Origin: Alloalcanivorax dieselolei B5
GTDB lineage: Bacteria; Pseudomonadota; Gammaproteobacteria; Pseudomonadales; Alcanivoracaceae
Assembly: GCF_000300005.1 (NCBI RefSeq)
Contig: NC_018691.1
Location: 1,984,001-2,048,000, forward strand
Reading direction: 5' to 3'
Length of the DNA stretch: 64,000 nucleotides
Part shown: one piece after another, positions 4,010 to 53,711 of the stretch
How positions within the stretch are numbered: the stretch's first letter is position 1
Layout: each line of letters starts with the position of its first letter
Notes under the pieces: model-generated
The model's database searches: none
What the model was told of the DNA's origin: nothing
The model's input: the letters and a program-made list of their open reading frames with translations, nothing else
Program-made: the position numbers and the translations under genes

Positions 4010-5227
4010 ATGGCGGAACAGTACGACGTGGTGATCATCGGCGCCGGTGCCGCCGGGCTGATGTGCGCCGCCACCGCCGGCTACCGGGGCGCCTCGGTGC
4101 TGGTGCTGGATCACGCCAACAAGCCCGGCAAGAAAATTCTCATGTCCGGCGGCGGGCGCTGCAATTTCACCAATCTCAACACCACGCAGGCCCATTTCGT
4201 TTCCGCCAATCCGCACTTCTGCAAATCCGCGTTGAGCCGCTATACCCCCTGGCATTTCGTCGAGCTGGTGGAGCGGCACGGCATCGAGCATGTGGAAAAG
4301 GCGCCGGGGCAGCTGTTCTGTGCCGACTCCAGCAAAGCGATTGTGGAGATGCTGCTCACCGAGTGTGAATGGGCCGGCGTCAGGATCCGGTTGAACACGG
4401 CGGTAACGCACATCAACGATCAGCCGGTGGGCAAACCGGGTGCCGGGCGGGCGGAAGGGGCCTTTACGCTGCGTACCAGCGAAGGCGTGGTGCGCGCCGG
4501 CAAACTGGTCATTGCCAGTGGCGGGCTCTCCATTCCCTCCATGGGGGCGAGCCCGTTTGGCTATAAAGTGGCGGAACAGTTCGGTCTGAACGTGTTGCCG
4601 ACCCGCGCCGCGCTGGTGCCCTTCACGCTGCAACCCGCGGACAAGGCATGGCTGGCGGAACTCAGTGGTGTCAGCGCCGAGGTTTGCGCGGAAGCCGGGG
4701 GCCGGTCTTTCTCCGAGCCCATGTTGATCACGCACCGGGGCTTGTCCGGGCCGGCCATGCTGCAGGTGTCCGCGTTCTGGCAAGCGGGTGCCGACGTTAC
4801 CGTGGACTGGTTGCCGATGCTGGCGGACCCGTACGCGGCTCTGCTGGAAGAGCGCAAGCAACATCCCAACGGTACCGTGGAGCGCTGGTTACGCTCGTTT
4901 TTTTCCCAGCGTTTGGCGGCGGCTCTGGTGGCGCGGTTCGATTGGCGAGGGCCCTTGCAGCACCATGCCAACGAACACCTGGCCAGCATCGCCGCCGTGC
5001 TCAAGGGCTGGCGTTTCAAACCCTCCGGCACCGAAGGCTACCGCACCGCCGAAGTCACCCTCGGCGGTGTCGATACCGACGCCGTCTCCTCCAAAACCTT
5101 CGAAGTCAAAACCGTTCCCGGCCTTTATTTCATCGGCGAAGTGCTCGACGTCACCGGCCAGCTTGGTGGTTTCAATTTTCAATGGGCCTGGGCCAGCGCG
5201 GTGGCGGCAAATACAGTTGACAGTTGA
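4010..5227 (+). CDS. HI0933-family NAD(P)/FAD-dependent oxidoreductase
   Basis: Flavoprotein of the HI0933/YhiN family (405 aa, normal length). An FAD-binding Rossmann motif VIIGAGAAGLMCA lies at residues 8-20, GKKILMSGGGRCNFTN is the family signature, and the C-terminal FAD motif reads GLYFIGEVLDVTGQLGG FNFQWA. The physiological reaction is unknown. The ATG at 4010 places the Rossmann fold right at the N-terminus; a longer in-frame ORF upstream lacks homology-like sequence. The last residues (TVDS) and the TGA stop come from the arm of repeat A1, so the native C-terminus has been replaced or extended by the repeat. It converges on mfd. Confidence 0.9.
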   Translation: MAEQYDVVIIGAGAAGLMCAATAGYRGASVLVLDHANKPGKKILMSGGGRCNFTNLNTTQAHFVSANPHFCKSALSRYTPWHFVELVERHGIEHVEKAPGQLFCADSSKAIVEMLLTECEWAGVRIRLNTAVTHINDQPVGKPGAGRAEGAFTLRTSEGVVRAGKLVIASGGLSIPSMGASPFGYKVAEQFGLNVLPTRAALVPFTLQPADKAWLAELSGVSAEVCAEAGGRSFSEPMLITHRGLSGPAMLQVSAFWQAGADVTVDWLPMLADPYAALLEERKQHPNGTVERWLRSFFSQRLAAALVARFDWRGPLQHHANEHLASIAAVLKGWRFKPSGTEGYRTAEVTLGGVDTDAVSSKTFEVKTVPGLYFIGEVLDVTGQLGGFNFQWAWASAVAANTVDS

Positions 5228-5366
5228 TAGTGGACAGTTGACAGCGAAAAGCCACAAAAATGGTCCATGCGCTTTCTGTGGGAACTTGCTCCCAGAGCCA
5301 CTGAAGATCACCTGTTTTTGTCTTTCGTCTTTCGCTGTCAACTGTCCACTGTCAACTATCAGCTGC
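5213..5366. repeat. Family A bracket element A1
   Basis: The left arm at 5215-5242 is four tandem 7-mers (AGTTGAC, AGTTGAT, AGTGGAC, AGTTGAC) followed by AGCGAAAA. The right arm at 5337-5364 carries the inverted set GTCAACT, GTCCACT, GTCAACT, ATCAGCT, preceded by TTTCGC. The core of about 90 bp contains a decayed hairpin (GTGGGAACTTGCTCCCA). The element separates convergent genes, and its left arm supplies the stop codon of the flavoprotein gene. Confidence 0.85.
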
Positions 5367-5369
5367 CTT

Positions 5370-8300
5370 TTACGGTGCTTTCCCGTTCCCCGCCAGATGT
5401 TCCAACAGCTGCTCGACTAATTGAACGCGTTCATCGGCGGTTTCCGATGGCAGTTGGAAGCGCAGGGTGTGGGCGCCTTCCAGGCGGTAGCGGTTGGGGG
5501 CGTTCTGCATCAGTTTGACCACGGTGAGCGGGTCCACCGGGGTGCGCTCGGCGAACTCCAGTTTGCCGCCGGCGGCGTTGGCGTCCACCCGGGTGATGGC
5601 CAGCGCTTCCGCCTGTTGCCGCAGAGCGGTGACCTTGAACAGGGTTTTCACCGCTTCCGGCAGCAGGCCGAAACGGTCGATCATCTCCACCTGCAATTCC
5701 CGTAACTGGTCGCCGGTTTTGCAGCCGGCGATGCGCTTGTACAGGGTCAGGCGGGTGAACACGTCCGGCAGGTAGTCTTCCGGAATCAGGGCCGGCACCC
5801 GCAGGTTGACTTCCGGGCCGCCGGACAGCGGTTTGGCGGTGTCCGGTTGCTCACCGCGTTTGAGCGCTTCCACCGCCTGCTCCAGCATTTCCATATAGAG
5901 CGTGAAACCGATGGTTTCCATGTTGCCGTGCTGCTCTTCACCGAGCAGTTCGCCGGCACCACGGATTTCCAGATCCTGGCTGGCGAGCACGAAGCCAGCG
6001 CCCAGGTCGGTGGCTTGTTCGATGGCTTCCAGCCGTTTCAGCGCGTCCTTGGTCATCGCCTTGGGGGAAGGCGTGACCAGGTAGGCGTAGGCCTGGTGGT
6101 GGCTGCGGCCGACCCGTCCCCGCAATTGGTGCAACTGAGCCAGGCCGAGCTTGTCGGCGCGCTCGATGATGATGGTGTTGGCGCTGGGCACGTCGATACC
6201 GGTTTCAATGATGGTGGTGCACACCAGCACGTTGAAACGGCGATGGTAGAAGTCGCCCATCACCGCTTCCAGTTCCCGTTCGCGCATCTGGCCGTGGGCG
6301 ATGCCGACCCGTGCGTCCGGCACCAGCGATTGGATCTGCTCGGCGGCGCGGCTCATGGTGTCGATGTCGTTGTGCAGGTAGTAGACCTGGCCGCCACGCA
6401 GCAACTCCCGCAGGATGGCTTCCTTGAGGGCGGTGTCGTCCCGTTGCCGCACGAAGGTTTTCACCGACAGGCGCCGCTGCGGCGGCGTGGCGATGATGGA
6501 AATGTCGCGCATGCCGCTGAGCGCCATGTTCAGGGTGCGCGGAATCGGTGTGGCGGTGAGGGTGAGGATGTCGCACTCGGCGCGCATTTCCTTGAGCCGC
6601 TCTTTGTGGCGCACGCCGAAGCGGTGTTCCTCGTCGACGATGATCAGGCCCAGGTCCTTGAAGCGGACGTTCTCTTGCAGCAACTGGTGGGTGCCGACGA
6701 CGATATCCACCTTGCCCTCGGCGAGCCGTTCCAGCACCTGGCTTTTGTCCTTGGCGCTGCGGAAGCGGGACAGCACTTCGATCTGCACCGGCCAGTCGGC
6801 GAAACGGTCGACGAAAGAATCGTAATGCTGTTGGGCGAGCAGGGTGGTGGGGACCAGCACGGCCACCTGGGTGCCGTTCTGAACCGCCACGAAGGCGGCG
6901 CGCATGGCCACCTCGGTCTTACCGAAACCGACATCGCCACAGACCAGGCGGTCCATGGGTTTTTGCCGTTGCATGTCGGCGATCACCGCGTTGATGGCGT
7001 TTTCCTGGTCCGGGGTTTCCTCGAACGGGAAACCGCTGGCGAAACGCTGATAATCCTCTTGCTCCAGCGGGAAACCGCGCCCTTCGCGGGCTTCGCGACG
7101 AGCGTAGGTGTTGAGCAATTCCGCCGCCACGTCGTTGATTTTTTCCGCGGCTTTTTGCCGCGCCTTGCTCCATTGCTCACTGCCCAGGCGATTCAGTGGC
7201 GGATGTTCGCCGCCGCCGTAGCGGCTGATCAGGTGCAGCGAGGACACCGGTACGTAGAGCTTGTCGCCGCCGGCGTACTCCAGCAGCAAAAATTCATGGG
7301 GCTGGTGATCCACGGTCATGTGCACCAGGCCCTGATAGCGGCCGACGCCGTGGTCCAGGTGCACCACCGGAGCGCCGATGGTGAGCTCGCCCAGGGAGCG
7401 GACCGCCAGATCCTGACCGCTGTCCTCGCTGGTGCGCCGCCGCCGGCGCTGCATGATCCGCTCGCCGTACAGCTCGCTTTCGCTGACCACCAGCAGTTCG
7501 TGGTCCGGCGCGTAGAAGCCGGCGTCGAGCTCACCCCGGGTCAGATTCCAGCGCTCGGGGGCGTCGAGGAAGTCCCGCCAGCCTTGTTTCAAAGCCGGCT
7601 GGATCGAGATGTTTTGCATCAGTTCGAGCAGCGCCTCGCGGCGCCCGGCGGTTTCCGCCACCACCAGGATGCGGGTGTCCGGGTGAGCATCGGAGAAGGT
7701 ATGCAAGGGCGCCAGTACATTGCCGCTGCGCGGGTCGGCGGCAAGCCGCGGTGAGCGTGCCAGGTTGAAGGTCAGCGCCTGTTCGGAGTCACGCACCCGG
7801 GCCCGGGGCAGGGTTTTCCAGGCGCCAGCCAGCTCGTCCGGGCGCAGGAACAGACTTTGCGGCGGCAGCACCGGCCGGCGGATGTCGTGGCGACGGGACT
7901 CGTAGCGCTGACTGACCTCGTCCCAGAAGTGCTGGGCGGCCTGCTCGCACTCCGCCAATTCCACCAGCCGGGCATTGGGCGGCAGGTAGTCGAACAAAGT
8001 GGCCAGTTGCTCGAAGAACAACGGCAGATAGTACTCCAGCCCCGGACTGGCGATACCCTCGGACACTTCTTCGTAGAGCGGTACTTTTCTTGGCTCCACG
8101 TCGAAGGTTTCGCGGAAGGCACCGCGGAAATGGCGGATGCCGTCCTGGCTGAGCGGGTACTCCGCCGCCGGCAGCAGATTGATTTCCCGCACCTGGCCGG
8201 TGGAGCGCTGGCTTTCCGGGTCGAACAGACGCAGGGATTCAATGTCCTGATCGAACAGTTCCACCCGGAACGGTTGCGTCGCGCCCATGGGGAAGATGTC

Positions 8301-8825
8301 CATGATGGCGCCACGCACGGCGAACTCGCCGTGTTCATAGACGTTGTCGCGTTGCCGGTAGCCACAGGCCACCAGTTGCTGGCGGGTGGCTTCCATATCA
8401 AAGGTGTCGTTGACCTTGAGCTGGAAATGATTGCCATTGATATGGATCGGCGGCGCCAGCCGCTGCATCAGCGTGTTCACCGGCACCACCAGAACGCCGC
8501 TGCGAGCCTGACCGAGCCAGTGTAGCGCCTGGATGCGGTCGCTGACGATGTCCTGGTGGGGACTGAACAGATCGTAGGGCAGGGTTTCCCAGTCGGGGAA
8601 CAGCCGCACCGGCACCTTGCTGTCAGCGAGGTAAAAGGCCAGCGAGTCGGCCAACTGCTGGGCACGGTTGCTGGACGGCGCCGCTACCAGCAGCAGGCCC
8701 TCGTCGCGGCGGGCCAGTTCCGCCAGTACCGCCGCCAAGCCGCCGGCGCCGGGGTCGCGCCAGTCGCGGTAGTGTTCACGTCCAGTGGAAAACAGGGAAG
8801 AATCGGGTAACAGGGTCAGGGTCAT
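5370..8825 (-). CDS. mfd: Transcription-repair coupling factor Mfd
   Basis: ATP-dependent DNA translocase that removes stalled RNA polymerase at lesions and recruits UvrA. 1151 aa, the normal size (E. coli 1148). Domains in order: UvrB-like N-terminal module, RNA-polymerase-interacting domain starting around LGELTIGAPVVHLDHGVGRYQG, RecG-like helicase with Walker A CGDVGFGKTEVA, DEEH box (IIVDEEHRFGV), motif III LTLTATPIPRTL and motif VI QLRGRVGRS, then the C-terminal UvrA-binding mimic. The start at 8825 is chosen for GGAGG 8 bases upstream and MTLTLLPDSSLF, as in homologues; the ORF could extend 45 codons upstream without support. The 3' end abuts repeat A1. Confidence 0.97.
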   Translation of the reverse strand: MTLTLLPDSSLFSTGREHYRDWRDPGAGGLAAVLAELARRDEGLLLVAAPSSNRAQQLADSLAFYLADSKVPVRLFPDWETLPYDLFSPHQDIVSDRIQALHWLGQARSGVLVVPVNTLMQRLAPPIHINGNHFQLKVNDTFDMEATRQQLVACGYRQRDNVYEHGEFAVRGAIMDIFPMGATQPFRVELFDQDIESLRLFDPESQRSTGQVREINLLPAAEYPLSQDGIRHFRGAFRETFDVEPRKVPLYEEVSEGIASPGLEYYLPLFFEQLATLFDYLPPNARLVELAECEQAAQHFWDEVSQRYESRRHDIRRPVLPPQSLFLRPDELAGAWKTLPRARVRDSEQALTFNLARSPRLAADPRSGNVLAPLHTFSDAHPDTRILVVAETAGRREALLELMQNISIQPALKQGWRDFLDAPERWNLTRGELDAGFYAPDHELLVVSESELYGERIMQRRRRRTSEDSGQDLAVRSLGELTIGAPVVHLDHGVGRYQGLVHMTVDHQPHEFLLLEYAGGDKLYVPVSSLHLISRYGGGEHPPLNRLGSEQWSKARQKAAEKINDVAAELLNTYARREAREGRGFPLEQEDYQRFASGFPFEETPDQENAINAVIADMQRQKPMDRLVCGDVGFGKTEVAMRAAFVAVQNGTQVAVLVPTTLLAQQHYDSFVDRFADWPVQIEVLSRFRSAKDKSQVLERLAEGKVDIVVGTHQLLQENVRFKDLGLIIVDEEHRFGVRHKERLKEMRAECDILTLTATPIPRTLNMALSGMRDISIIATPPQRRLSVKTFVRQRDDTALKEAILRELLRGGQVYYLHNDIDTMSRAAEQIQSLVPDARVGIAHGQMRERELEAVMGDFYHRRFNVLVCTTIIETGIDVPSANTIIIERADKLGLAQLHQLRGRVGRSHHQAYAYLVTPSPKAMTKDALKRLEAIEQATDLGAGFVLASQDLEIRGAGELLGEEQHGNMETIGFTLYMEMLEQAVEALKRGEQPDTAKPLSGGPEVNLRVPALIPEDYLPDVFTRLTLYKRIAGCKTGDQLRELQVEMIDRFGLLPEAVKTLFKVTALRQQAEALAITRVDANAAGGKLEFAERTPVDPLTVVKLMQNAPNRYRLEGAHTLRFQLPSETADERVQLVEQLLEHLAGNGKAP

Positions 8826-8936
8826 CAAGGGCCTCCAGCGCGGGCGCATTGTAGCAGGGGAGCGGGGATCGGACACGGGGTGGAGAGCTGACGTGCTCTG
8901 AAACCGTTCGCTTCGAATCAACCCTGGACTTTGACA

Positions 8937-9014
8937 CCGCTGTAGGAGCTTGCCCTGCAAGCGAATCTTTTAGCCGGAAGCCGAATTCGCTTGCAGGGCA
9001 AGCTCCTACAGCGG
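8937..9014. repeat. Family B perfect hairpin B1
   Basis: Perfect 30-bp arms at 8937-8966 and 8985-9014 with an 18-base loop. Each arm contains the core GTAGGAGCTTGCCCTGCAAGCGAAT or its complement, and the arm itself holds the nested palindrome GCTTGC...GCAAGC. The element lies in the 305-bp divergent gap between mfd and the thioesterase, so here it is in a promoter region rather than at gene ends. Close copies occur at 35485 and 40285. Confidence 0.85.
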
Positions 9015-9130
9015 CTGCCGGGCGGCGCTCCGTTTGGCGGCGAATCGACCGCGATGCTTTTGCTTTAGAGCCTGGCCTGCGTTTGCGGTACTATTGCGCG
9101 CCTATGCGTGCACCACAGCTGGGGAGAACT

Positions 9131-10006: not shown

Positions 10007-10010
10007 ATAC

Positions 10011-10314
10011 GCGCGTGCACGCTAACACGCCGTCACGCTAACACGCTTTGAAAACACCCGGTCATCCCGGGGTAGAGAGTCCAATAACTCAAGGCCATTG
10101 AACTCCCCCTTCGGGGTGCCCTGAAGGGCGTTCAAACGGTACTCTAAGCCCCGTTGTGTGAGCCGGGATCGCCCTTTGTAGGGCACATGGCTGCGTAGAG
10201 GGAGATGCCGGATCAAGTCCGGCATGACGGGGTTGCTCTGAATTCATACCCCCAAAGCCCGCAAGCGGGCCTTGGGTTTGGCGTGCCAGCGTGTTGCGTG
10301 TAAGCGTGCCAGCG
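10011..10314. repeat. Family C bracket element C2
   Basis: Arms at 10011-10047 (GCACGCTAACACGC, CGTCACGCTAACACGC) and 10280-10314 (GCGTGCCAGCGTGTTGCGTG) face each other. The 230-bp core includes a hairpin at 10205-10225 (ATGCCGGA, TCAAG, TCCGGCAT) of a type common as dispersed repeats in proteobacteria. The element fills most of the 448-bp gap between tesB and the GAPDH gene; I see no gene in that gap. Confidence 0.7.
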
Positions 10315-10454
10315 AATTGTGGGACACCAATGGTCCACGGACCGTGATTTTTCTGATCCAAGGGGAGGGCCAATGCCTCCGCATTGGGTGGATATGCGCC
10401 CCCATTGGCGCTATTATGCGCGCCCCCAGGAACCCAATTGAGAGGGGCTCATCC

Positions 10455-11906: not shown

Positions 11907-11917
11907 GTCAGGCACGG

Positions 11918-13569: not shown

Positions 13570-13570
13570 T

Positions 13571-19333: not shown

Positions 19334-19570
19334 ATGTTTGCCACTCTGATCGCCGCCTTTGTCGTTATCGGCATCCTGTTCGCCGCCATGGCCGTTGGCG
19401 TGATCTTCTCCAACAAGCCGATCAAGGGCTCCTGTGGCGGCCTGGCGACGCTGGGCATGAAGGACGGCTGCGAAATCTGCGGCGGCGACAGCAACGCCTG
19501 CGAGGAAAACACCCGCCAGGAAAACGCCAAACGCGCCGGAAGCTTGGGTAAGGACGTGTTGAAAACCTGA
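19334..19570 (+). CDS. nqrM: NQR maturation protein NqrM (DUF539)
   Basis: Small protein (78 aa) with one N-terminal membrane helix (2-24) and four cysteines at C34, C46, C49 and C56 in a CGGLATLG...CEICGG arrangement. Family members are needed for assembly of NQR, apparently by delivering iron to the NqrD/E cluster. Its ribosome site (CAGGAGAAG) lies inside the end of apbE. Repeat A2 starts 8 bp after its stop. Confidence 0.94.
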   Translation: MFATLIAAFVVIGILFAAMAVGVIFSNKPIKGSCGGLATLGMKDGCEICGGDSNACEENTRQENAKRAGSLGKDVLKT

Positions 19571-19577
19571 AATAAAT

Positions 19578-19790
19578 ACAGTTGACAGTTGATAGTTGAC
19601 AGCTCGCGGGACAGGAGAAATTGGCCCGTAACCGATGAGGCCGCGTCCAAAGCCTGGGTGCGGCCTCATTACGTATAAAAGATTAAACGTAGCCAGGGGC
19701 AGAGGGCTGCGTATACGCAAATATGCTTTGCACGAACGCAAGGTCTTTTTCTTTTCGCTGTCAACTGTCCACTATCAACTGTCAACTGCC
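19578..19790. repeat. Family A bracket element A2, with a different core
   Basis: The left arm at 19580-19600 has three 7-mers (AGTTGAC, AGTTGAT, AGTTGAC); the AGTGGAC unit is missing. The right arm at 19760-19787 has all four inverted units preceded by TTTTCGC. The core differs from the other A copies: it holds a hairpin at 19635-19669 with 10-bp arms (ATGAGGCCGC / GCGGCCTCAT) and no GCTTGC-type hairpin. The element lies between convergent genes, and the right arm gives the stop codon of the minus-strand GNAT/C39 gene. Confidence 0.82.
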
Positions 19791-20872
19791 TTTACAATGA
19801 CTGCGGTGCGCAGCCGTGACTGCCCATAGCGGGCCATTTTGTCGAAGCCGTCGCGGGCGATGGGGATGTATTGGCAGTCCAGGGGGATCTGATCCTCCGC
19901 CGGGTCCGGGTCGTGGATGTAGAAGCACTCCCGGTCGCCGCCGGCCACCACCACCCAGTGGGGCGCTTTACGTCCGTCCAGCCGCCAGGTGCTGATCAGC
20001 ACCATGGCCACTTCACCGTTTTCCAGTGCCTGATCCAGCCGCTCGCTGCCCAGTTCCGCGTAGTGCACCGGAATCGCTTGCGCCTGTGCCTGTTCGACGA
20101 AGTGATGGTGGACCGTTTCCATCACCCTTTTCTTGTGCGCATCACGCACCGAATCAAGAAACAGAGGGCCTCGCTGATTGCACCAGACCTCGGCGGCGAG
20201 GCCGCGTCGACGGGCGGCCAGGGCCAGGCCGAGCGGGTGGCAGCCGCCATGGCCGGCGGTCATGAAGATGGTGGTGGCTTCGCGCCAGAGCAGCAGTTCC
20301 TCACTGTCGCTGGGCGGTTCGCCCTGCAGCGCGGCGCGGGCCATCATCAGGCAGGCGGGGCCGCAGGAGAAGTCGGTGCTCTGCCGGATCCACGGCACCG
20401 CCAGCCGCTCGCCACCGTCGGGCCGGTAATGCAGCCGCTTCTGAAAACGCAGCGCATCCTGGTGGTCCTCGTAGTAGTCGGCGGTCTGGCCGAACAGACG
20501 GTAACCGCGCCGCTCATAGAGACGAATAGCGGAGGCGTTGTCCTTGCGGACTTCCAGGCGCAGGTAAAGCCGTCGATGACGGTGCGCGTAATGCTCGGCG
20601 GCGTCGAGCAACTGCTCGCCGAGCCCTTTGCCACGTTGACTGGGATCCACGGCGATGGAGTAGAGGCGTGCCAGGCGGGTGCCGTTGTACAGCATGACCA
20701 GGGCGTAACCGAGCAGACCGCTCTCTTCTTGCTCCGCCACGATCAGGCCGCAAGGGTTCTGGCGCAGCCAATGGCGGAAGCTGCGGCGGGATAGCCGGTC
20801 GCTGCTGAAGCAGCGTTGCTCCAGGGCGCACAGGGCGTCCAGATCGTCGGCGCGGGCGGTGCGTAATGCCAT
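19775..20872 (-). CDS. GNAT acetyltransferase fused to C39-like peptidase
   Basis: Two-domain protein of 365 aa. Residues 1-150 are a GNAT/RimI-like N-acetyltransferase with the acetyl-CoA loop SQRGKGLG at 78-85. Residues about 158-355 are a papain-like C39-type domain with catalytic C170 in TDFSCGPACLMMA and a candidate His in APHWVVVAGGD. No signal peptide, so it is probably cytosolic. Such fusions occur in pseudomonads, but I know of no proven substrate; maturation of a small peptide is one idea. Its last residues (AVDS) and stop lie in repeat A2. Confidence 0.85.
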   Translation of the reverse strand: MALRTARADDLDALCALEQRCFSSDRLSRRSFRHWLRQNPCGLIVAEQEESGLLGYALVMLYNGTRLARLYSIAVDPSQRGKGLGEQLLDAAEHYAHRHRRLYLRLEVRKDNASAIRLYERRGYRLFGQTADYYEDHQDALRFQKRLHYRPDGGERLAVPWIRQSTDFSCGPACLMMARAALQGEPPSDSEELLLWREATTIFMTAGHGGCHPLGLALAARRRGLAAEVWCNQRGPLFLDSVRDAHKKRVMETVHHHFVEQAQAQAIPVHYAELGSERLDQALENGEVAMVLISTWRLDGRKAPHWVVVAGGDRECFYIHDPDPAEDQIPLDCQYIPIARDGFDKMARYGQSRLRTAVIVKAVDS

Positions 20873-29369: not shown

Positions 29370-29538
29370 GCTGGTACGCAACACGCTTACACGCAACACG
29401 CTGGCACGCTAAGCCATTCGCGGCTAAAGCCGCTCCCACAGACGGGACTTCGAGGCCACCTCTGAAGTCATGTCACCAAAACCCGCAAGCAGGCTCCGAC
29501 TTTAGCGTGTCAGCGTGTTGCGTGTATGCGTGCCAGCA
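29370..29538. repeat. Family C bracket element C3
   Basis: The left arm at 29370-29412 (GCTGGTACGCAACACGC, TTACACGC, AACACGCTGGCACGC) faces the right arm at 29502-29538 (TAGCGTGTCAGCGTGTTGCG, then TGTATGCGTGCCAGC). The 90-bp core contains GCGGCTAAAGCCGC, a REP-like mini-hairpin. It lies 36 bp after the metallohydrolase gene. Confidence 0.72.
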
Positions 29539-35484: not shown

Positions 35485-35565
35485 GCCGCTGTAGGAGCTT
35501 GCCTGCAAGCGAATATATTCTCCGACGGTGGAAGAATTCGCTTGCAGGCAAGCTCCTACAGCGGC
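35485..35565. repeat. Family B perfect hairpin B2
   Basis: Perfect 30-bp arms at 35485-35514 and 35536-35565 with a 21-base loop. It has the same core as B1 except for one fewer C (GCTTGCCTGCAAGC instead of GCTTGCCCTGCAAGC), the matching change being present in both arms. It lies between convergent nudix and aguB genes, where it could serve as a two-way transcription stop. Confidence 0.85.
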
Positions 35566-40237: not shown

Positions 40238-40284
40238 GCGTCTACACTCTGATCGCTTTCCCTCTGAGGGGACTACGAGGCCGT

Positions 40285-40355
40285 TGTAGGAGCTTGCCCT
40301 GCAAGCGAACGGGCTATCGGGCCCCAGGAATTCGCTTGCAGGGCAAGCTCCTACA
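40285..40355. repeat. Family B hairpin B3
   Basis: Perfect 25-bp arms at 40285-40309 and 40331-40355 with a 21-base loop, sharing the core of B1. It lies between convergent lolD and the betaine/choline transporter gene. The rest of this 243-bp gap shows no gene. Confidence 0.85.
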
Positions 40356-40480
40356 GTGGCTTCGTGGCAATCTCTGAATTCATGTTTTCAGCACCTCTGC
40401 CAGGATCTCCCAAAGTGGTGCCTCACGGGCCGCGATCTTTTTGTTTTGGAGAAGCGGGCCCGGAAGGCCCGCCCGCCGAC

Positions 40481-42514
40481 TCACCGCATCATGTGCAGGA
40501 AGTGCATGTGCTTCTCGTACTGGTCGAGCACATCGCCGATCACCTGCTCGCGGGTGAAGCCCATCAGATCGTAGTCCTGACCGCCTTCGCTGAGGAACAC
40601 ATCGGCCCGATAGTAGCGGTCGCTTTCCGCTTTGCGCTTGGAGTATTCCAACTGACGCATGCTGATGGACGGCCGGGTGTAGCCGCGTACCCGCACGCCG
40701 TAGACGAAGTCCATCTCCTGTCCCAGGTCCACGGTCAGATAAACACGATCCCCTTCGTCGCTCTCGTTGACCTCCACCTTGAGGCCATGCCCGCGCAACT
40801 CCTCGGCCACCGACTGCAGTGCCGGAGCGGCCACCTCGGCCACGTATTGCAGTACCCGCGCCTTGCCGGGGAAATGGACCATGCCCCGCAGACGGGCTTT
40901 CCAGCCGCCGGCGGGGGTGCTGTGGCCCATGTGCACGGCGGGGGGCGGTGCCAGAGACGCCTGGAAGCTGAGCTTGCGGATGCCCTCCACCTTGAGCGAG
41001 CGCAACAGGCCGACACAGGCCACCAGCAGCACCAGAGAGAACGGCAGCGCCAGGGCGATGGTGGCGGATTGCAGTGCCTTCAGGCCACCGGCCAACATCA
41101 GGGCGATGGCCACGATCCCTTCGGAGCTGGCCCAGAACACCCGCTGCCATACCGGGGTGTCGTCGTGGCCGCCGGAGGCGAGCATGTCCACCACCATGGA
41201 ACCGGAGTCCGAGGAGGTGACGAAGAACACCACCACCATCAACACCGCGATGGAGGAAACCACACCGGACCAGGGGAACTGTTCCAAGAACTGGAACAAC
41301 GCCACCGCCGCGTCCTTCTGCACTTCGGTGCCCAGGGCGGGGAAGATGTTGTCCGCGATCATCTGGATGCCGGAGTCACCGAACACGGTCATCCACAGCA
41401 GGGTGAAAGCGGCCGGCACCAGCATCACGCCGAGGGCGAACTCACGGAGCGACCGGCCCCGTGAAATACGGGCGATGAACATGCCCACGAACGGCGACCA
41501 GGAGATCCACCAACCCCAGTAGAACAGGGTCCAGTCACCGAGCCAGCCCTGTGGCCCGCTGCCGTCGTTTTCCACCGGTTGATAGGTGTACAGATTGAAC
41601 GTCATATCCACCAGATTGGACAGATAGGCACCCAGATTCTGCACATAGGCCTTCAGCAGGAACAGGGTCGGCCCCAGGAACAGCACGAACATCAACAGCA
41701 GGAAGGCCAGCACCAGGTTCAGTTCGGACAGCCGCCGGATGCCGGCGTCCAGACCGGTGACCACGGAGATCGTGGCCAGCGCGGTGATCGAGATGATCAG
41801 TCCCACTTGCACCCATTCGGTTTTGGGTAACCCGAACAGGTGATTGAGACCGGCGTTGACCTGCTCGACGCCAAGGCCAAGGGACGTGGCCACGCCGAAC
41901 ACGGTACCCACCACCGCGAAAACATCCACCATGTGGCCGATCGGGCCGTAGATTTTTTTGCCGATAAGAGGGTAGAGGGCGGAACGCAGCGTCAGTGGCA
42001 GGCCATGGCGGAAGCTGAAGTACGCCAGGATCATCGCCACCACGGCATAAATAGCCCAGGCGTGCAGCCCCCAGTGGAAGAAGGTGACGCGCATGGCTTC
42101 CTTGGCGGCGTCGATGGAGCCGGGCTCGGCCATGGGCGGCGACATGTAATGCAATACCGGTTCGGCCACGCCGTAGAACATCAAGCCGATGCCCATGCCG
42201 GCGGAAAACAACATGGCGAACCAGGAGCCATAACTGTAGTCCGGTTCCGAGTGATCCGGCCCCAGTTTGATATCGCCATAGCGGCTGACGATCACGAACA
42301 CCACCAGCGATAAAAGAATCGCCACGGTGAGAATGTAAAACCAGCTGGCGTATTGCTGCACACCGGTTTTCATTGTTGAAAAGAACCCGGCCGCCTCGGG
42401 TTTAAAAAAGGTCGAGAACAGCACCAGACCAACAATGATAATCACGGATGTAAAAAAAACCGGGGGGTTTATTTTGACCTTTGCGGAAGGTTCCTCGAGG
42501 GAATTAGGTTCCAT
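40481..42514 (-). CDS. betT: BCCT-family choline/betaine transporter
   Basis: Secondary transporter for quaternary ammonium osmoprotectants, 677 aa with 12 membrane helices plus a cytosolic C-terminal domain of about 160 residues as in BetT. Family blocks: SYGSWFAMLFSAGMGIGLMFYGVAEP, FFHWGLHAWAIYA and the aromatic box WTLFYWGWWISWSPFVGMFIAR. The long tail typically mediates osmotic activation. Choline versus betaine specificity is not decided here, and no betA/betB genes are in the window. The 337-bp gap upstream holds repeat A3. Confidence 0.92.
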   Translation of the reverse strand: MEPNSLEEPSAKVKINPPVFFTSVIIIVGLVLFSTFFKPEAAGFFSTMKTGVQQYASWFYILTVAILLSLVVFVIVSRYGDIKLGPDHSEPDYSYGSWFAMLFSAGMGIGLMFYGVAEPVLHYMSPPMAEPGSIDAAKEAMRVTFFHWGLHAWAIYAVVAMILAYFSFRHGLPLTLRSALYPLIGKKIYGPIGHMVDVFAVVGTVFGVATSLGLGVEQVNAGLNHLFGLPKTEWVQVGLIISITALATISVVTGLDAGIRRLSELNLVLAFLLLMFVLFLGPTLFLLKAYVQNLGAYLSNLVDMTFNLYTYQPVENDGSGPQGWLGDWTLFYWGWWISWSPFVGMFIARISRGRSLREFALGVMLVPAAFTLLWMTVFGDSGIQMIADNIFPALGTEVQKDAAVALFQFLEQFPWSGVVSSIAVLMVVVFFVTSSDSGSMVVDMLASGGHDDTPVWQRVFWASSEGIVAIALMLAGGLKALQSATIALALPFSLVLLVACVGLLRSLKVEGIRKLSFQASLAPPPAVHMGHSTPAGGWKARLRGMVHFPGKARVLQYVAEVAAPALQSVAEELRGHGLKVEVNESDEGDRVYLTVDLGQEMDFVYGVRVRGYTRPSISMRQLEYSKRKAESDRYYRADVFLSEGGQDYDLMGFTREQVIGDVLDQYEKHMHFLHMMR

Positions 42515-42640: not shown

Positions 42641-42846
42641 AGTTGACAGTTGATAGTGGACAGTTGACAGCGAAAATCAAAAAATGCGGTCGATTCGCTT
42701 TCTGTGAGAGCTTGCCTGCAAGCGAATATTACTAAACACCGAATGAACCCCATTCACTTGCAAGCAAGCTTCCCACAGCGGCTAAAGATCACCTGTTTTT
42801 GTTTTTCATTTTTCCGTTGTCAACTGTCCACTATCAACTGTCAACT
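42641..42846. repeat. Family A bracket element A3 with nested B-like hairpin
   Basis: Left arm at 42641-42668 (AGTTGAC, AGTTGAT, AGTGGAC, AGTTGAC, then AGCGAAAA) and right arm at 42819-42846 as the exact inverted order. The core carries an imperfect family B hairpin: 42702-42727 (CTGTGAGAGCTTGCCTGCAA...) with 42752-42778. Unlike the other A copies it lies between tandem genes: the 3' end of the DUF58 gene and the 5' region of betT. Confidence 0.85.
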
Positions 42847-42851: not shown

Positions 42852-44174
42852 TCACAGTCTCCCCGCCCGTTTCAACGCCAGATAGGTCTGTCCCAGGCGT
42901 TCGGCGAGGCGTTCCGGGGTGGTGGCGACCACGTTGGCGCCGGCGCGGCGCAGGCGCACGTGCAGGGCTCTCCGGTGTTCCTGTTCCTGGGCGTCCGCCG
43001 CCAGCCGCAGGGCATCGTCCAGGTCCTGGACTGGCGCCTGGTGCAGGGCTTCCTGCTCGGGCAGGCGGATGTCCGCCACCATCACCAGGTGGCGCCGGCT
43101 CAGCAGCGTGACGGCAGCGAGCAGATCGTCGCTGTCCTCCGGGTGCAGCCGGCTGACCAGCACCACCAGGGAGCGGCGTTGCCAGCGGCCGTGGAAATAG
43201 CGGGCGGCCTGGCTGAAGTCGCTGGCGTGCTCCTGGGGATGCACGTCGTAGAAGCCTTTCAGCAGGGTCTGGATGCCACTGGGGCCGTGCACCGGCGCCA
43301 GCCAGCGTGGCGTGTCCCGGGAGAACAGCAGGCTGCCCACCCGGTCGCCCTGCCGCAGTGCCGACCAGGCCAGCAGCAAAGTGGCGTTGAGCCCGTGGTC
43401 GAACAGGGTCAGATCGCCCACCGGCAGCTTCATTCGTCGCCCGGCATCGAGCAGTACCCACAGGCTCTGGTTCTGTTCATCCTGGTAGTGACGGGTGATC
43501 AGATGACGGCGGCGGGCGCTGGCTTTCCAGTCGATGCGGCGCGGGCTGTCGCCGGGCTGGTATTCCCGCAATTCGTGGAATTCCAGGCCCTGGCCGCGGC
43601 GCGGCTGCTGGCGGTTGCCGAAGCGCAGCTGGCTTTTATCCACCGCCAGGGCCGCCCGGGCGATGGGGGAAAAGTCCGGATACACCGGCACGGTACGGGT
43701 GGCGGCCACCCGGCGGCGGCCCTGCCACAGGCGCGCCGGGGACGGCAGCCACACTTCGATGTCGCCGAACGTCACCGGGCCGCGCCGGGAGGGACGGTAA
43801 CGGTAGCGGACCTCGGTGATGTCCGCCGCCAGGGCCACTTCCCGCGGCAGGCCGGTGTGACTGTCGTCATCGGGGTGATGATCGGCCAGATTCCAGATCT
43901 CACCGGGTCGCCCGCCGCTCAGACGCAAAGTGATGGTCTGCGGCACCCCCACCGACAGGGCGGCGGGCAGTGAGCGCTCGGCGGCTGGCGCCGGGCGCGC
44001 GCTCAAGCGCCGGGCGTCCAGCACCGCCCATAACGCCAGCGCCAGACCGGCCAGCACCCAGACCAGCAGGGCGCTGTCGCGCCATCCGGAGGCGAAGGCC
44101 GCCGCCAGCACCGGCAGCAGGCTCAGCGCCGCCCAGCACAGCAGCAGCAACAGCAGGCGCGACCCGGGTCTCAT
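42852..44174 (-). CDS. DUF58 domain protein (MoxR partner)
   Basis: 440 aa with two N-terminal membrane helices (about 7-27 and 33-50), a beta-rich middle and the DUF58 signature EFHELREYQPGDSPRRIDWKASAR. After it, LWVLLDAGRRM occupies the place of the MIDAS strand of von Willebrand A folds, but the serines are absent (DAGRR instead of DxSxS). DUF58 proteins nearly always pair with MoxR ATPases; a scaffold or substrate-presenting role is inferred. Last gene of the nine-gene operon, starting 4 bp inside moxR; repeat A3 follows 6 bp after its stop. Confidence 0.9.
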   Translation of the reverse strand: MRPGSRLLLLLLCWAALSLLPVLAAAFASGWRDSALLVWVLAGLALALWAVLDARRLSARPAPAAERSLPAALSVGVPQTITLRLSGGRPGEIWNLADHHPDDDSHTGLPREVALAADITEVRYRYRPSRRGPVTFGDIEVWLPSPARLWQGRRRVAATRTVPVYPDFSPIARAALAVDKSQLRFGNRQQPRRGQGLEFHELREYQPGDSPRRIDWKASARRRHLITRHYQDEQNQSLWVLLDAGRRMKLPVGDLTLFDHGLNATLLLAWSALRQGDRVGSLLFSRDTPRWLAPVHGPSGIQTLLKGFYDVHPQEHASDFSQAARYFHGRWQRRSLVVLVSRLHPEDSDDLLAAVTLLSRRHLVMVADIRLPEQEALHQAPVQDLDDALRLAADAQEQEHRRALHVRLRRAGANVVATTPERLAERLGQTYLALKRAGRL

Positions 44175-47954: not shown

Positions 47955-48906
47955 GACGCCCCGCGAACAGCAAATAGAAGTAAAGCAGGGCCCAGCTGAT
48001 GCCGCCGACGGTGTATTTGATCTGGGCGTCCAGCTCCCGGGAGGACCAGAACGCCTCGATCATCGCCGCCAGCACCAGCAGCAGGAACACGCCGTACATG
48101 ACCGGCAGGGTTTCCCGTGCCGCCCGGCGCAAGGCGTCCACTCGTCGCCAGGAACCCGGCGCCACCAACGACCAGCCCAGGCGCAGCCCGGCGCCGCCGG
48201 CCAGCACGATGGCGGTCAGCTCCGGCGCCCCATGGGCAATGACGAAGGTGTAGAACGGCTGCCCGGCGCCTACCAGGGTCAGGTGGGCGGCGGCGGCGCC
48301 AAGGAAACTACCGTTGAACAGCATCACCACCAGGGAGCCGATGCCGAACAACACGCCTCCGGCGAAGGTGCGGAAGGCGATGCCGACGTTGTTGTAGATG
48401 TAGTAGCCGAACATCATCAGATCGTCGGCCCGGTTGCGGTCGCTGCTGTCGCGCAGATCCGGGTGGTACATGTTTTCCAGATCGCTGACGCCGTTGCCGT
48501 CCACCACGGTATGCACCAGTTCCGGGTCGTGCAGGATCATGGCCGCGACCAGACCGGCGGAGAGCAGGAAGGCGAGGGCGCTGATCAGATGCCAGCGCCA
48601 CATGGCGCGCACCGCGCGCGGGAAGTCACCGCGCAGGAACGCCGCCAGCCTCGGCATCAACGGCGCCCGGTGACGGTAGAGTTGGCGATGGGCACGGAGC
48701 ATCAGGTCGTTCAGGTAGTCCTGCAGTACCAGGCTGTAGCCCCTTTCCCGCGACAGCGCCAACTGATGGCACAGGTCCTGGTAGTCGTCGGTGAAGCGCG
48801 ACAAATCCACGTTCTTGGGCCGCTGCTTCTTCTCCAGCGCCGCCAGGCCCTGTTCAAGGCGGCGCCATTGAGGCTGATAGCGCTGTTCGAACTGGCTTTG
48901 TCTCAT
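47941..48906 (-). CDS. Stage II sporulation protein M-like (DUF95) membrane protein
   Basis: 321 aa with a cytosolic N-terminal region of about 95 residues and six or so membrane helices. SpoIIM-like features are YIYNNVGIAFRTFAGGVLFGIGS and FVIAHGAPELTAIVLAGGAGLRLG. In sporulators SpoIIM belongs to the peptidoglycan-degrading engulfment machine; this organism is not expected to sporulate, so another membrane function is likely. Its stop overlaps the DUF4129 start by 14 bp. Confidence 0.87.
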   Translation of the reverse strand: MRQSQFEQRYQPQWRRLEQGLAALEKKQRPKNVDLSRFTDDYQDLCHQLALSRERGYSLVLQDYLNDLMLRAHRQLYRHRAPLMPRLAAFLRGDFPRAVRAMWRWHLISALAFLLSAGLVAAMILHDPELVHTVVDGNGVSDLENMYHPDLRDSSDRNRADDLMMFGYYIYNNVGIAFRTFAGGVLFGIGSLVVMLFNGSFLGAAAAHLTLVGAGQPFYTFVIAHGAPELTAIVLAGGAGLRLGWSLVAPGSWRRVDALRRAARETLPVMYGVFLLLVLAAMIEAFWSSRELDAQIKYTVGGISWALLYFYLLFAGRHGSE

Positions 48907-49566
48907 GCCGCCCCCAGTACGTGATTGACCACCCGGCGTAACCGGGCCAGGGCGGCATCATCGTTGAGTTCCGGATAAGCCAGCCTGGCCAGTTCCCGTT
49001 GACGCTCCTCGGACAGCCGTGGGCCACGGTCATGAAAGGCCAGCAGCACCAATTGGTCGCCACGGTCCAACGGCCAATCCGGCGGCTCTCCACCGCTGTC
49101 ACCGGGAGCGGGACGGGTTTGCGATGCGGGCACGTGAATCACCAGAGTGTCGGCGGCGAGATCGCCCAGCCGTTGCTGGCGGGAGGAGACCAGCATCACC
49201 ACGAAGCCGGTCAGGTAGGCGAACGGGAACAGATCGGCGGTGCGTAGCAGATTGCGCACCAGCGAGCCGCTCAAGCCCACCGGAGCGCCGTTGCCGTGCA
49301 CCACCGCCAGGCCCATCATCGCCTTGCCCGGCGTGCGCCCCTGCCGGAACACCTCGAACAGCACCGGGTAAAACCATTCCAGCAGGAACAACAGCAATAA
49401 ATAGAGACCGGAGCCGCCACGGCCCAGCAACGTCAGGGGCGTGGCCACCACCATCAGAATCAGGCCTCGGATCATCAAATCGATGCCGTAGGCCATGCCG
49501 CGCGGTAGCGGCCCGGCCAGGGACAAGGTCAGCCGAGCGCCTTCCGGCGTATCAATGTGCAGACGT

Positions 49567-49586
<20 letters not shown>
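48903..49586 (-). CDS. RDD family membrane protein
   Basis: 227 aa. RDD domain with three to four helices: GMAYGIDLMIRGLILMVVATPL (the Arg/Asp motif is split as Y-G-I-D), EVFRQGRTPGKAMMGLAVV and the C-terminal soluble tail LVLLAFHDRGPRLSEERQRELA. The start is GTG at 49586, overlapping the DUF2069 stop by 20 bp; no ATG fits. RDD proteins next to SpoIIM and DUF58/MoxR genes are a recurrent but undefined association. Confidence 0.85.
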
Positions 49587-50854
<1,268 letters not shown>

Positions 50855-51028
50855 GGCCTCGCTCCCCTTGAGAAATAGTGGGCGGTGTCGTCCCCGTAGT
50901 CGGCGGCGCTCGCGAAAGCCCACGATTGTACGGCAGTGGATGGCGTTTGTGGGAGATTCCATGTCTCGCGGGAAGATGATAGGGGGCGCGACTTGACCTC
51001 CTGCTTTTATTTGGCGATCCAGTGAACG

Positions 51029-52366
51029 ATGGGAAAAAAGAAACCGATGACGGACAAGGACGAGACACCGCTGATTCCCTTTCGCGTCCGTATGCAGTCG
51101 CTGGTGGCGTTCCTGCGCTTGCTGCGGCGCCAGTTCGTCGAGGACGGTTGCCTGTCCTCGGCGGCGGCGCTCACCTATACCACCTTGTTTGCCATCGTTC
51201 CGGTGATGACGGTGATGTTCACGGTGATATCGGCGCTCCCGGCGCTCAACGAACGGGGGCTGGCGATTCGTCAGTGGGCGTTTCAGTATTTCGTGCCGTC
51301 CGCCGGTGATCAGATTCTTCGCCATCTGGAAGGCTTCTCCCGGCAGGCCACCAATCTCACCGTGGTGGGCGCCCTGTTCCTGGTGGTCACCTCGGTGTTG
51401 ATGTTGCGCACCATCGAGCAGTCATTGAACCGCATCTGGCGTATCGGCAAGCCGCGCAAGGGGCTGACTAGTCTGATGATGTACTGGGCGGTGCTGTCTC
51501 TGGGGCCGATACTGCTGGGCGTCGGTCTGGGTATCAGTTCCTACCTCACTTCCGTTTCCCTGGTCACCGATACCGTGGCGTATCTGGGCGGCGACCGTTT
51601 CTGGCTGCGCGCCTTGCCGGTGGTGATGACCACCGGTTTACTCTCGCTGCTGTATATCGTGGTGCCGAATACCTCGGTACCGATTCGGCAGGGGGTGCTC
51701 GGTGCTTTGCTGGCGGCCTTGGCGTTTGAACTGGCCAAGGGCGGGTTCGCGTTCTTCATCCGGCAGGTGCCCAGTTATCAGGTCATCTATGGTGCCTTTG
51801 CCATGGTGCCGGTGTTTCTGTTGTGGATTTATATTTCCTGGATCATCGTTCTCGCCGGCGCCGAGCTGGTGCGGGGCCTGGTGGTGTTCGAGGAATTTCG
51901 ACGCCGGGTGCCGCGCACCCAGTCGCTGCTGCGATTGCTGTGCCTGCTGTGGACACGACAACGTAACGGGGAAGTGCTACGTCATAATGAGGTACAGCGT
52001 GTGCTGCGGGACGCCGGCGTCACCCACTGGGACGAATTCCGCAATCTGCTGGAGGATCGTGGATTGATTCGCCGCACCGACGATGGCGGTTACATGCTCA
52101 GCGGAGATTTACGTTCGTTGACCCTGGCGGATCTGCTCGCCATGTTACCCTGGACCAGCGAGCAGCAACTGAACGTCAACGCTCAGGGGCTGGAGCCCTG
52201 GGAGACGGTGCTCAAGGCACGCTGCGATCAGGCGCGCGAGGGCATGCGTGCGCCGTTGTCGTTTCCCCTGGAAACGCTGTTCGAGAATCAGTTGTCGGAA
52301 ACCGGCCCCGATCCCGACCTCAGTGATGAGGGGGCCGGTCATCGAAAAGAGGATGAACGATCATGA
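51029..52366 (+). CDS. YihY/virulence factor BrkB family membrane protein
   Basis: 445 aa. The YihY fold has about six membrane helices (LTYTTLFAIVPVMTVMFTVIS, LTVVGALFLVVTSVLMLRTIEQSLNRIW, YGAFAMVPVFLLWIYISWIIVLAGAELV). It is followed by a cytosolic winged-helix-like C-terminal extension of about 140 residues, a form common in gammaproteobacteria. Despite old RNase BN labels the function is unsettled. A second ATG 18 bp downstream is also possible. Overlaps the acylphosphatase gene by 4 bp. Confidence 0.9.
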   Translation: MGKKKPMTDKDETPLIPFRVRMQSLVAFLRLLRRQFVEDGCLSSAAALTYTTLFAIVPVMTVMFTVISALPALNERGLAIRQWAFQYFVPSAGDQILRHLEGFSRQATNLTVVGALFLVVTSVLMLRTIEQSLNRIWRIGKPRKGLTSLMMYWAVLSLGPILLGVGLGISSYLTSVSLVTDTVAYLGGDRFWLRALPVVMTTGLLSLLYIVVPNTSVPIRQGVLGALLAALAFELAKGGFAFFIRQVPSYQVIYGAFAMVPVFLLWIYISWIIVLAGAELVRGLVVFEEFRRRVPRTQSLLRLLCLLWTRQRNGEVLRHNEVQRVLRDAGVTHWDEFRNLLEDRGLIRRTDDGGYMLSGDLRSLTLADLLAMLPWTSEQQLNVNAQGLEPWETVLKARCDQAREGMRAPLSFPLETLFENQLSETGPDPDLSDEGAGHRKEDERS

Positions 52367-52632
52367 TTGCCCGTCAAGTGGTGGTGCGCGGCCGCGTTCA
52401 GGGCGTGCTTTTTCGTGCCAGCACCTGTGATGAAGCCCGCCGGTGTGGCGTGGTGGGCTGGGTCCGCAATCTCGAGGATGGAGGCGTGGAGGCCTGGCTT
52501 GAGGGTAGCGAGGAAGCGGTCAGCGCCTTGCTGGCCTGGATGCGCCGTGGCCCTGCCCGCGCGCGCGTCACCGATGTGACGCAAACTGAACGCAGCCCGA
52601 GGGGCTACGAGGACTTCGAGGTATCCTGGTGA
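52363..52632 (+). CDS. acyP: Acylphosphatase
   Basis: Small enzyme (89 aa) hydrolysing acyl phosphates. The catalytic pair R18 (GRVQGVLFR) and N36 (VVGWVRN) sits in the usual places, and the C-terminus GYEDFEV matches the family. The start overlaps the yihY stop (ATGA), and the stop overlaps the next start (GTGA). Confidence 0.94.
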   Translation: MIARQVVVRGRVQGVLFRASTCDEARRCGVVGWVRNLEDGGVEAWLEGSEEAVSALLAWMRRGPARARVTDVTQTERSPRGYEDFEVSW

Positions 52633-53516
52633 AACAGGTTGAACTGGTGAACGGCGATCTGCGCTTTCCGGCGCTGCTGACCGGTGACGGCGAGCCGGTA
52701 TTGTTGCTGCATGGCTTTCCGGATACCCATGAGAATTGGGCCGATATCATGCAGCGGCTGGCGGGCGCCGGTTATACCGCGGTGGCCCCGGCATTGCGTG
52801 GTTACGCGCCGTCCTGTCAGCCCGGCAGCGGTGACTATGCACTGACCGCCGCGCTGGAGGATCTGATGGCCTTCACCGATCAACTGGGCGGGCGTGTGCA
52901 TCTGATCGGCCACGATTGGGGCGCGGTGCTGGGCTACCTGGCCTGTGCGCGCTACCCGGAAACCTTCAGCTCTTTTTCCGCGCTGGCGATACCGCCTTTG
53001 AAACGCTTGCCCCAGGCGCTGCTGCGGGTGCCGGAACAATTGGGTCTGAGCGCCTATATTCCGTTTTTCCAACTGCCGCTGGCGGCGGAAACCTGGCTCA
53101 ACCGCAACGACCTGGACGGTGTCGCCACCCTGTGGCGGCGCTGGTCACCGGGTTGGGAAGCCGGCCGCTACCTGGAGCAGGCCAAGCACACCCTGGCCCA
53201 ACCCGGCGTCTTGTCCGCCGCCCTGGGCTGGTACCGGCACTTGCCCCGGCTATGGCGCCGGGACCTGCGTCAGGCCAGCAAGACACTGCTGGGAGAAACC
53301 CGGGTTCCGACCCAGGTGTTGCTCGGCGAAAGCGACGGCTGCATGAGCCCGCGCCTGCTGGATCACACCATCTATCCCAGCGACTTCCCCGAAGGCCTCC
53401 ACGTCAAAACCCTGGCCGACGCCGGCCACTTCCTGCACCTGCAACAACCGGACGCCGTGGCGGCGCTGTTGGTGGAGCACATTCGAAAAGAAGAGAACAA
53501 GACAGTTGACAGTTGA
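52629..53516 (+). CDS. Alpha/beta hydrolase, epoxide-hydrolase-like
   Basis: 295 aa. Oxyanion motif HGFPDTHENW at about 29-38, and nucleophile elbow GHDWGA with D96, the aspartate nucleophile of epoxide hydrolases and haloalkane dehalogenases. A cap domain follows, with the acid in LGESDGCMSP and the His in DAGHFLHLQQPD. Epoxide hydrolase is more likely than dehalogenase, but not proven. Starts with GTG at 52629 inside GTGA. Its last residues (KTVDS) and stop lie in the arm of repeat A4. Confidence 0.85.
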   Translation: MKQVELVNGDLRFPALLTGDGEPVLLLHGFPDTHENWADIMQRLAGAGYTAVAPALRGYAPSCQPGSGDYALTAALEDLMAFTDQLGGRVHLIGHDWGAVLGYLACARYPETFSSFSALAIPPLKRLPQALLRVPEQLGLSAYIPFFQLPLAAETWLNRNDLDGVATLWRRWSPGWEAGRYLEQAKHTLAQPGVLSAALGWYRHLPRLWRRDLRQASKTLLGETRVPTQVLLGESDGCMSPRLLDHTIYPSDFPEGLHVKTLADAGHFLHLQQPDAVAALLVEHIRKEENKTVDS

Positions 53517-53711
53517 TAGTGGACAGTTGACAGCGAAAAGACCAAGTAGTCTGATCTTTAGCCGCTGTGGGAAGCTTGCTTGCAAGCGAATGGGATTTGC
53601 TCAAGTGTTCAGCAATATTCGCTTGCAAGCAAGCTTCCCGCAGTAGCTAAGGCTCACCCGTTTTTGTTTTTCTTTTTTTCGCTGTCAACTGTCCACTATC
53701 AACTGTCAACT
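53504..53711. repeat. Family A bracket element A4 with nested B-like hairpin
   Basis: Left arm at 53504-53531 and right arm at 53684-53711, each with four 7-mers in exact inverted order, extended by AGCGAAAA / TTTTTTCGC. The core has a family B-like hairpin at 53564-53591 and 53617-53643 (GTGGGAAGCTTGCTTGCAAGC and its complement). It lies between convergent genes; the left arm ends the alpha/beta hydrolase gene. Confidence 0.86.

Follow-up and report, generated by a model that had tools for sequence, protein, structure and literature searches.

Introduction

Tandem heptamers have been described in the genomes of several bacteria. Rehm et al. 2015 reported GGGAATC heptamers in Xanthomonas and GGGGA(C/T)T heptamers in Nostoc; according to the accessible portion of that article, the Xanthomonas arrays prefer four units, form inverted pairs (70 and 75 of them) and lie next to stop codons, with 83% shared gene context in a second species, and their four-unit bias was tied to G-quadruplexes while function was left open (PMC4692102). 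The TAACTGA heptamers of Beggiatoaceae, in the accessible portion of MacGregor 2015, lie mostly just upstream of start codons (PMC4679880). Here we analyse a window of 64,000 nucleotides, bases 1984001-2048000 of the 4,928,223-base single-contig genome of Alloalcanivorax dieselolei B5 (label G000), in which an initial annotation made from the letters alone had noticed four ‘bracket’ elements, each with two facing arms of tandem 7-mers around a core. These elements, A1 (window positions 5215-5364), A2 (19580-19787), A3 (42641-42846) and A4 (53504-53711), lie within 3 nt of where they were first placed, and they belong to a large family of four-heptamer brackets at stop codons, whose places are mostly fixed between close species and whose arm types and cores differ.

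The Xanthomonas GGGAATC repeats and the arms described here have in common four 7-mers, inverted pairing and adjacency to stop codons, but the G-tract needed for a G-quadruplex is present in GGGAATC and missing from the arms that we call type A below. In the accessible part of the Xanthomonas account, a position between convergent genes is given for 16%, versus 22 of 37 paired elements here, and a hairpin core, arm covariation, arm-type switching and whole-element exchange, all seen here, do not appear (PMC4692102). When 369 genomes of the class were searched for GGGAATC, a single one matched, G166, with six arrays of 2-5 units (loci L237, L240, L243 and L244), four of which have an inward-pointing stop codon 2-15 nt away; at two of the loci the arrays adjoin a GC-rich hairpin together with GCGAAAACC, GAGAAAACC or GGCGAAACC. 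This is a similar layout with another heptamer, in too few loci to claim more. The TAACTGA arrays resemble ours in being tandem 7-mers of similar letters in intergenic DNA, but in the accessible text they are direct arrays, with one inverted case among 170 sets (PMC4679880).

Doublets of repetitive extragenic palindromes (REPs) that form hairpins (REPINs) and bacterial interspersed mosaic elements (BIMEs) share with the brackets a palindromic form and an intergenic place, and many cores here are REPIN-like. The REP tag is GTAG, and to our knowledge REPINs do not carry heptamer arms. An inverted REP pair with bare ends is not what we observe: the heptamer arms lie outside the REP pair, some cores have no REP, and standalone REP ends, unlike most arms, are not found within 15 nt of a stop codon. 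In neisserial intergenic mosaic elements, dRS3 inverted repeats flank variable cores, as the arms do here, although dRS3 is a single 20-bp repeat and not a four-heptamer array. The initial annotation knew of no description of the brackets. Our literature search, with most subscription papers outside its coverage, found none for this AGTKRAY family, and the arm letters used as a query gave no title on such elements among the matches listed. Within the literature searchable here the family is not previously described, while its layout is a variant of that published, in the accessible text, for the Xanthomonas heptamer repeats (PMC4692102).

A large family of four-unit arms

A search of the B5 genome for the 28-base arm with up to 3 mismatches, as the initial annotation had suggested, gave 40 forward and 45 reverse matches, 85 copies in all. 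The same arm is found in none of the other 397 genomes of a phylum sample of 398, and for this reason we do not regard the B5 copies as a chance family. A reversed-pattern control (31+35 matches) was rejected as background, since AGTTGAC, when reversed, gives a rotated copy of the same word. From 45 stretches totalling 379,543 bases of the genome we extracted at least 37 distinct paired elements and at least 25 unpaired arms, after removing one double listing (3896636 and 3896661 share a right arm). The list combines arms within 3 mismatches of one 28-mer with the 19-mer matches listed, and degenerate elements are missed. Six of the 25 unpaired arms are three pairs split by an insertion sequence (IS). 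Together the 37 paired elements take up 7,039 bases, about 0.14% of the genome.

Within the genus, the arm occurs at up to 2 mismatches in 8 of 13 genomes and is absent at that threshold from the other five. The nearest named relatives are Alloalcanivorax balearicus MACL04 (G001), A. xenomutans JC109 (G011) and Alcanivorax sp. 24 (G012). Matches number 79 in B5, 61 in G012, 23 in G007, 18 in G001 and 8 in G011, with lower counts in G006 (4), G005 (2) and G010 (2). The arm unit has the consensus AGTKRAY, with two main types, AGTKGAY (type A) and AGTKAAY (type B). Four AGTKRAY units followed by AG, at up to 2 mismatches, match 13 of 293 genomes of the order, of which eight are Alcanivoracaceae, three from the same genus and five from a second genus (151, 130, 74, 30 and 1 matches); five genomes outside the family have 1-9 matches each, and four sampled genomes of Alcanivoracaceae have none.

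Unit counts and stop distances were taken from arms of at least three units. In B5, 88 of 97 such arms have exactly four 7-mers, and four units also predominate in G001 (45/55), G011 (19/22), G012 (10/13), G545 (19/19), G620 (22/23) and, at 10/18, G006. One element of G012 (L175, 6786-7051) has a right arm enlarged to 11 units beside a left arm of four, which is a slippage expansion.

Placement at stop codons

For the stop-distance analysis, duplicates and arms less than 200 nt from a locus end were dropped. Of the 97 B5 arms, 74 have the stop codon of a gene that points inward no more than 15 nt from their outer edge, and 75 have one between −30 and +60. The distances have peaks at −13 and −6, places at which a TGA in unit two or unit one closes the gene, and also at +4 to +7. 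An inward stop within 15 nt is likewise found for 43/55 arms in G001, 14/22 in G011, 9/13 in G012, 10/18 in G006, 14/19 in G545 and 17/23 in G620. Standalone REP ends behave differently, with 0/16 in B5 and 0/23, 0/5, 0/25 and 0/1 in other genomes; the loci of G545 and G620 had no standalone REP palindromes to compare. Around the 37 pairs, gene order is convergent in 22, codirectional in 14 and divergent in one, while 53 of all 298 adjacent gene pairs in the same loci (the 37 included) are convergent.

A short A-rich linker with the consensus AAARRC precedes the arm and often begins at or just past the stop codon; base preferences at the six positions beyond the outer edge are A, A, A/G, G/A, G/A and C. 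At least four A within 10 nt outside the arm were counted for 56 of 97 arms, versus 30 of 233 stop codons without a nearby arm.

Hairpins, cores and arm-to-arm matching

In minimum free energy folds, at least 80% of the left arm is predicted to pair with the right arm in 32 of the 37 elements; the RNA fold of A4 is predicted at −138.1 kcal/mol, with a z score of −17.8. Stable predicted hairpins with A/T tracts at gene 3′ ends, as expected of a bidirectional intrinsic terminator, are present. The initial annotation had offered a structured terminator family as one reading: its anatomy is borne out by the gene-end placement, the very long hairpins and the A-rich outer edge, and termination itself is a probable function rather than an observation.

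Cores vary while arms are near-uniform by eye. Two main kinds of core occur, REPIN-like palindromes and a GC-rich hairpin often accompanied by a TGCG..CGCA motif; some cores have both and some neither. The REP places listed at up to 2 mismatches number 57; a known arm lies within 250 nt of 16 of them and of none of the other 41. The tags among those listed are GTAG (31) and GTGG (10) without an arm, and GTGG (10), GTAG (5) and GTGA (1) near one, so by tendency the REP tag differs between arm-linked and free REPs.

Agreement between the two arms was examined in 90 elements whose left and right arms each have four units; 31 of the 37 B5 elements qualify. At position 5 of the unit the two arms carry the same base in 345 of 360 comparisons (179 with G, 166 with A) and differ in 15, part of the agreement reflecting genomes rich in one type. 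When each arm was compared with its own and with shuffled partners, shuffles did as well in 4 of 5000 trials for G001, 26 for G011, 41 for G620, 88 for G006 and 97 for B5. Because both arms usually share a type, elements seem to be exchanged as whole units.

Fixed sites with changing content

Ten B5 sites were compared with two or three relatives each, the relatives' loci having been chosen partly for holding arms. With this choice, the relative has an element next to the same gene ends in 24 of 27 species-by-site comparisons; the three without one all concern a single site, the lone arm at 1978210. Flanks of 300 nt are 86-99.6% identical, apart from one at 72.4% in G012. At the 24 occupied sites the arms are type A as in B5 in 7 cases, mainly type B in 16 and mixed in 1; three mainly-B elements of G011 carry one G-type unit. 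A change of arm type often goes with a different core. The A2 core is a GC-rich hairpin in B5 and G011 and REPIN-like in G001 and G012, and at site 1930674 the arms and almost all of the core are common to G001 and G011, with B5 differing. B5 has no match to the type B 28-mer; a looser type B pattern, for which overlapping registers were counted, gives 8 matches in B5, against 166 for G001 and 187 for G011. G001 is closest to B5 by flank identity in most aligned blocks, and since it is, the simplest reading is that element replacement occurred on the dieselolei branch. The initial annotation's suggestion of a recombinogenic element is supported by this pattern of whole-element replacement at fixed sites.

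More distant species, inspected by eye, are without the A2 element (G002, G004, G007, G009 and G010; 5/5) and the A3 element (G003, G004, G006 and G009; 4/4), although G004, G006, G007 and G010 carry heptamer arms elsewhere. Their element-free spacers are short, or hold other palindromes or an extra gene. The A2 spacer of G002 and G004 (L080, L081) has a small gene between REP palindromes, which by eye, from a sequence motif, resembles a putative REP-associated tyrosine transposase.

Possible explanations for the brackets

On balance, and with only slight confidence beyond an even call, we lean towards palindromic cassettes at gene 3′ ends that would serve in two-way transcription termination or insulation and would be renewed in place by ectopic gene conversion. 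The two facing arms and the core would fold into one very long hairpin filling most of the intergenic spacer, most often between convergent genes, and this hairpin would end or insulate transcription from both sides. Placement and folds suggest that the cassettes probably act as two-way terminators. Such long palindromes would be likely break points, and the arms could supply shared homology for ectopic gene conversion, or similar copying repair, among dispersed copies, with the outcome that arm type and core would change while position and flanks stay; we infer this renewal from the pattern of sites and sequences. Because places are mostly fixed between close species while hairpins are swapped, the pattern suggests that the brackets are a form of punctuation that these species share at gene ends, and not ordinary jumping DNA.

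Several observations weigh against the cassette explanation. It gives no account of how new sites arise. The type A and type B consensus arms agree at only about 23 of their 28 bases, and at the A1 site of G001 an additional gene separates the element from its left neighbour. In G012 (683/5000) and G545 (1133/5000) arm matching is not clearly better than with shuffled partners. No inward stop lies within 15 nt of 23 of the 97 B5 arms, several of which are start-side arms between codirectional genes. A simple terminator scan returned 0 sites at A4, though its 3-8 nt loop limit would miss such a structure.

The initial annotation had also proposed a non-autonomous mobile element, which in its fullest form would be a miniature inverted-repeat transposable element whose 28-bp arms are terminal inverted repeats, mobilized in trans by a transposase with a strong preference for gene ends and older copies. 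Copies are many, the exact 28-mer also occurs in another genus (G620), the A2 and A3 sites hold no element in the distant species inspected, and a gene of the 23S rRNA-intervening-sequence type lies within one core. Arms are nested at 1633628-1633968 and 3896636-3896879, the lone arm at 1978210 is missing from three relatives, and G012 has a lone arm near its own position 2019453, where B5 has a bare REPIN; the nested arms and the G012 arm suggest that gains of elements do occur. We nevertheless consider this origin unlikely. Target-site duplications, which the initial annotation had advised looking for, were not found at the 37 paired elements: direct 3-, 4- and 5-mers flank 0/37 (shuffled mean 0.47 for 3-mers) and 2-mers 7/37 (shuffled 4.85). 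The comparison of empty and filled sites that it had also advised yielded no clean pair for a two-armed element at the ten sites in close relatives, which share the sites in nearly all comparisons. Cores vary while arms stay near-uniform by eye, and the only transposase seen between arms, in a genome that was not searched for others, is that of an IS3-family element that was inserted later and has ends and 3-bp duplications of its own.

That the arm is a four-fold protein-binding site (the initial annotation had noted that a 7-bp period could be a repeated one), or an RNA tag just past the stop codon, with the hairpin secondary, we regard as a little less probable again than transposition in trans. 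The strong four-unit bias and the tight distance to stop codons fit it, as does the observation that 16 of 19 unpaired arms (IS-split halves excluded) abut an inward stop codon, and TAACTGA heptamers of Beggiatoaceae were proposed, in the accessible text, as post-transcriptional sites (PMC4679880). Two arm types, with G or A at position 5, at orthologous sites of close relatives argue against any single fixed recognition sequence, however, and in five of the seven genomes an arm fits its true partner more closely than it fits most shuffled partners, as pairing would require. Least credible of all, to the point that we give it hardly any weight, is an origin of the four-unit arrays in G-quadruplexes or plain simple-sequence slippage, as proposed for the Xanthomonas heptamers. 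Slippage does occur, array length varying rarely and reaching 11 units in G012, and some type B units read AGGGAAC. Yet the type A units (AGTTGAC, AGTTGAT and AGTGGAC) contain no GGG, for which reason G-quadruplex arms of type A were rejected, and four units prevail all the same (88/97), while slippage alone yields neither matched inverted arms nor placement at stop codons. Until now the preference of bacterial heptamer repeats for four units has been unexplained or tied to G-quadruplexes; because the same bias, inverted pairing and stop placement occur here with a unit free of G-tracts, that link cannot be the general answer.

A wider claim, which we put forward tentatively and hold to be improbable, would make four-heptamer brackets that surround hairpin cores at stop codons a general bacterial gene-end class, with AGTKRAY in Alcanivoracaceae and GGGAATC in xanthomonads. 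The arms would then be the recognition part of a homing-like copying that could sweep a new arm type quickly through nearly all sites of a genome, as may have happened in the dieselolei lineage. Fixed sites with differing content and with flanks mostly 86-99.6% identical amount to a natural experiment, in which repeat turnover by conversion or homing is directly testable.

The four window elements and further observations

Flanking genes were called with our own hexamer-based open reading frame (ORF) caller, in slightly different versions for gene order and for stop distances. As the initial annotation had it, three of the four elements (A1, A2 and A4) lie between convergent genes, and by the same caller A3 lies between two minus-strand genes. 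Six of the eight arms have exactly the unit order AGTTGAC, AGTTGAT, AGTGGAC, AGTTGAC; as had been noticed, the A1 right arm departs from it in its first two units (AGCTGAT, AGTTGAC) and the A2 left arm is one unit short. The cores measure 94, 159, 150 and 152 nt, where the initial annotation had given about 90 to 155 bp. The common continuation of the arms, AGCGAAAA, does not hold throughout, being replaced by AGCTCGCG at A2 left, AACGGAAA at A3 right and AGCGAAAG at A1 right.

The four 7-mers of the A1 left arm (5215-5242, +) contain the stop codon of gene 3872-5227; the 94-nt core (5243-5336) is by eye a shortened REP-like hairpin, placed by our script in the class ‘other’, and the altered right arm (5337-5364, −) ends 5 nt from the stop of a transcription-repair coupling factor-like gene (5370-8960, −) with DEAD, TRCF, UvrB_inter and CarD_TRCF_RID domains. 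At the A1 site of G001 (L070) the extra gene is very roughly 750 nt long, and the element abuts its stop and the right neighbour. The three-unit left arm of A2 (19580-19600, +) begins 9 nt past the stop of gene 19334-19570, its core (19601-19759) combines a GC-rich hairpin, GAGGCCGCGTCC..GTGCGGCCTC, with a TGCGTATACGCAAA..TTTGC motif, and its right arm (19760-19787, −) contains the stop codon of gene 19775-20872 (−), which by domain match encodes a GNAT acetyltransferase with DUF3335. The last residues and the stop codon of this protein fall within linker and arm (19775-19790); its end is rewritten by the element and by eye differs in the distant relative G009.

For A3, the left arm (42641-42668, +) is on the start side of gene 40481-42514 (−) at a distance of 126 nt, a REPIN-like palindrome forms the core (42669-42818), and the right arm (42819-42846, −) is 5 nt from the stop of gene 42852-44174 (−). 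In A4 the left arm (53504-53531, +) contains the stop codon of an alpha/beta hydrolase gene, so named by domain match (52629-53516, +), the core (53532-53683) is again a REPIN-like palindrome, and the right arm (53684-53711, −) lies 6 nt from the stop of gene 53718-55004 (−). Rfam families gave 0 matches at the gathering score across the window.

One IS3-family element has four copies in B5, at 503244-504485, 1501964-1503206, 2939575-2940816 and 4032377-4033619, with 3-bp duplications read by eye as CGC, GAC, TTC and AGA. Three copies stand between two arms and the fourth begins 18 nt inside a lone arm, in the hairpin core. As paired elements make up so small a part of the genome, these landings are not chance, and the IS3 element has a target preference for heptamer elements. 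Arms as the ends of this IS were rejected, the IS having its own ends and its four copies having been inserted later.

Our ORF caller left all 37 paired elements without a gene, which was too strict for the element at 869077-869538 (L040, 3078-3539), whose 406-nt core holds a 118-aa ORF matching PF05635 (E 9.9e-26), the 23S rRNA-intervening sequence protein. A tblastn search with this ORF returned no second copy in 245 sequence records. Genes of this type also sit in hairpin-forming insertions in rRNA, and we take the likeness of the gene-bearing bracket to rRNA intervening sequences as a lead, not a result.

REPIN-like palindromes that bear GTAG tags but stand alone, with no heptamer arms, also occur in the window at 8937-9014, 35485-35565 and 40275-40365, the latter two between convergent genes. 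Bracket-like inverted pairs at 551-695 and 29382-29532 have arms of GCGTG-type words, such as CACGCTTACACGCAACACGCTGGCACGC, and are possibly another arm family; the pair at 551-695 ends 6 nt from the stop of gene 702-1709 (−).

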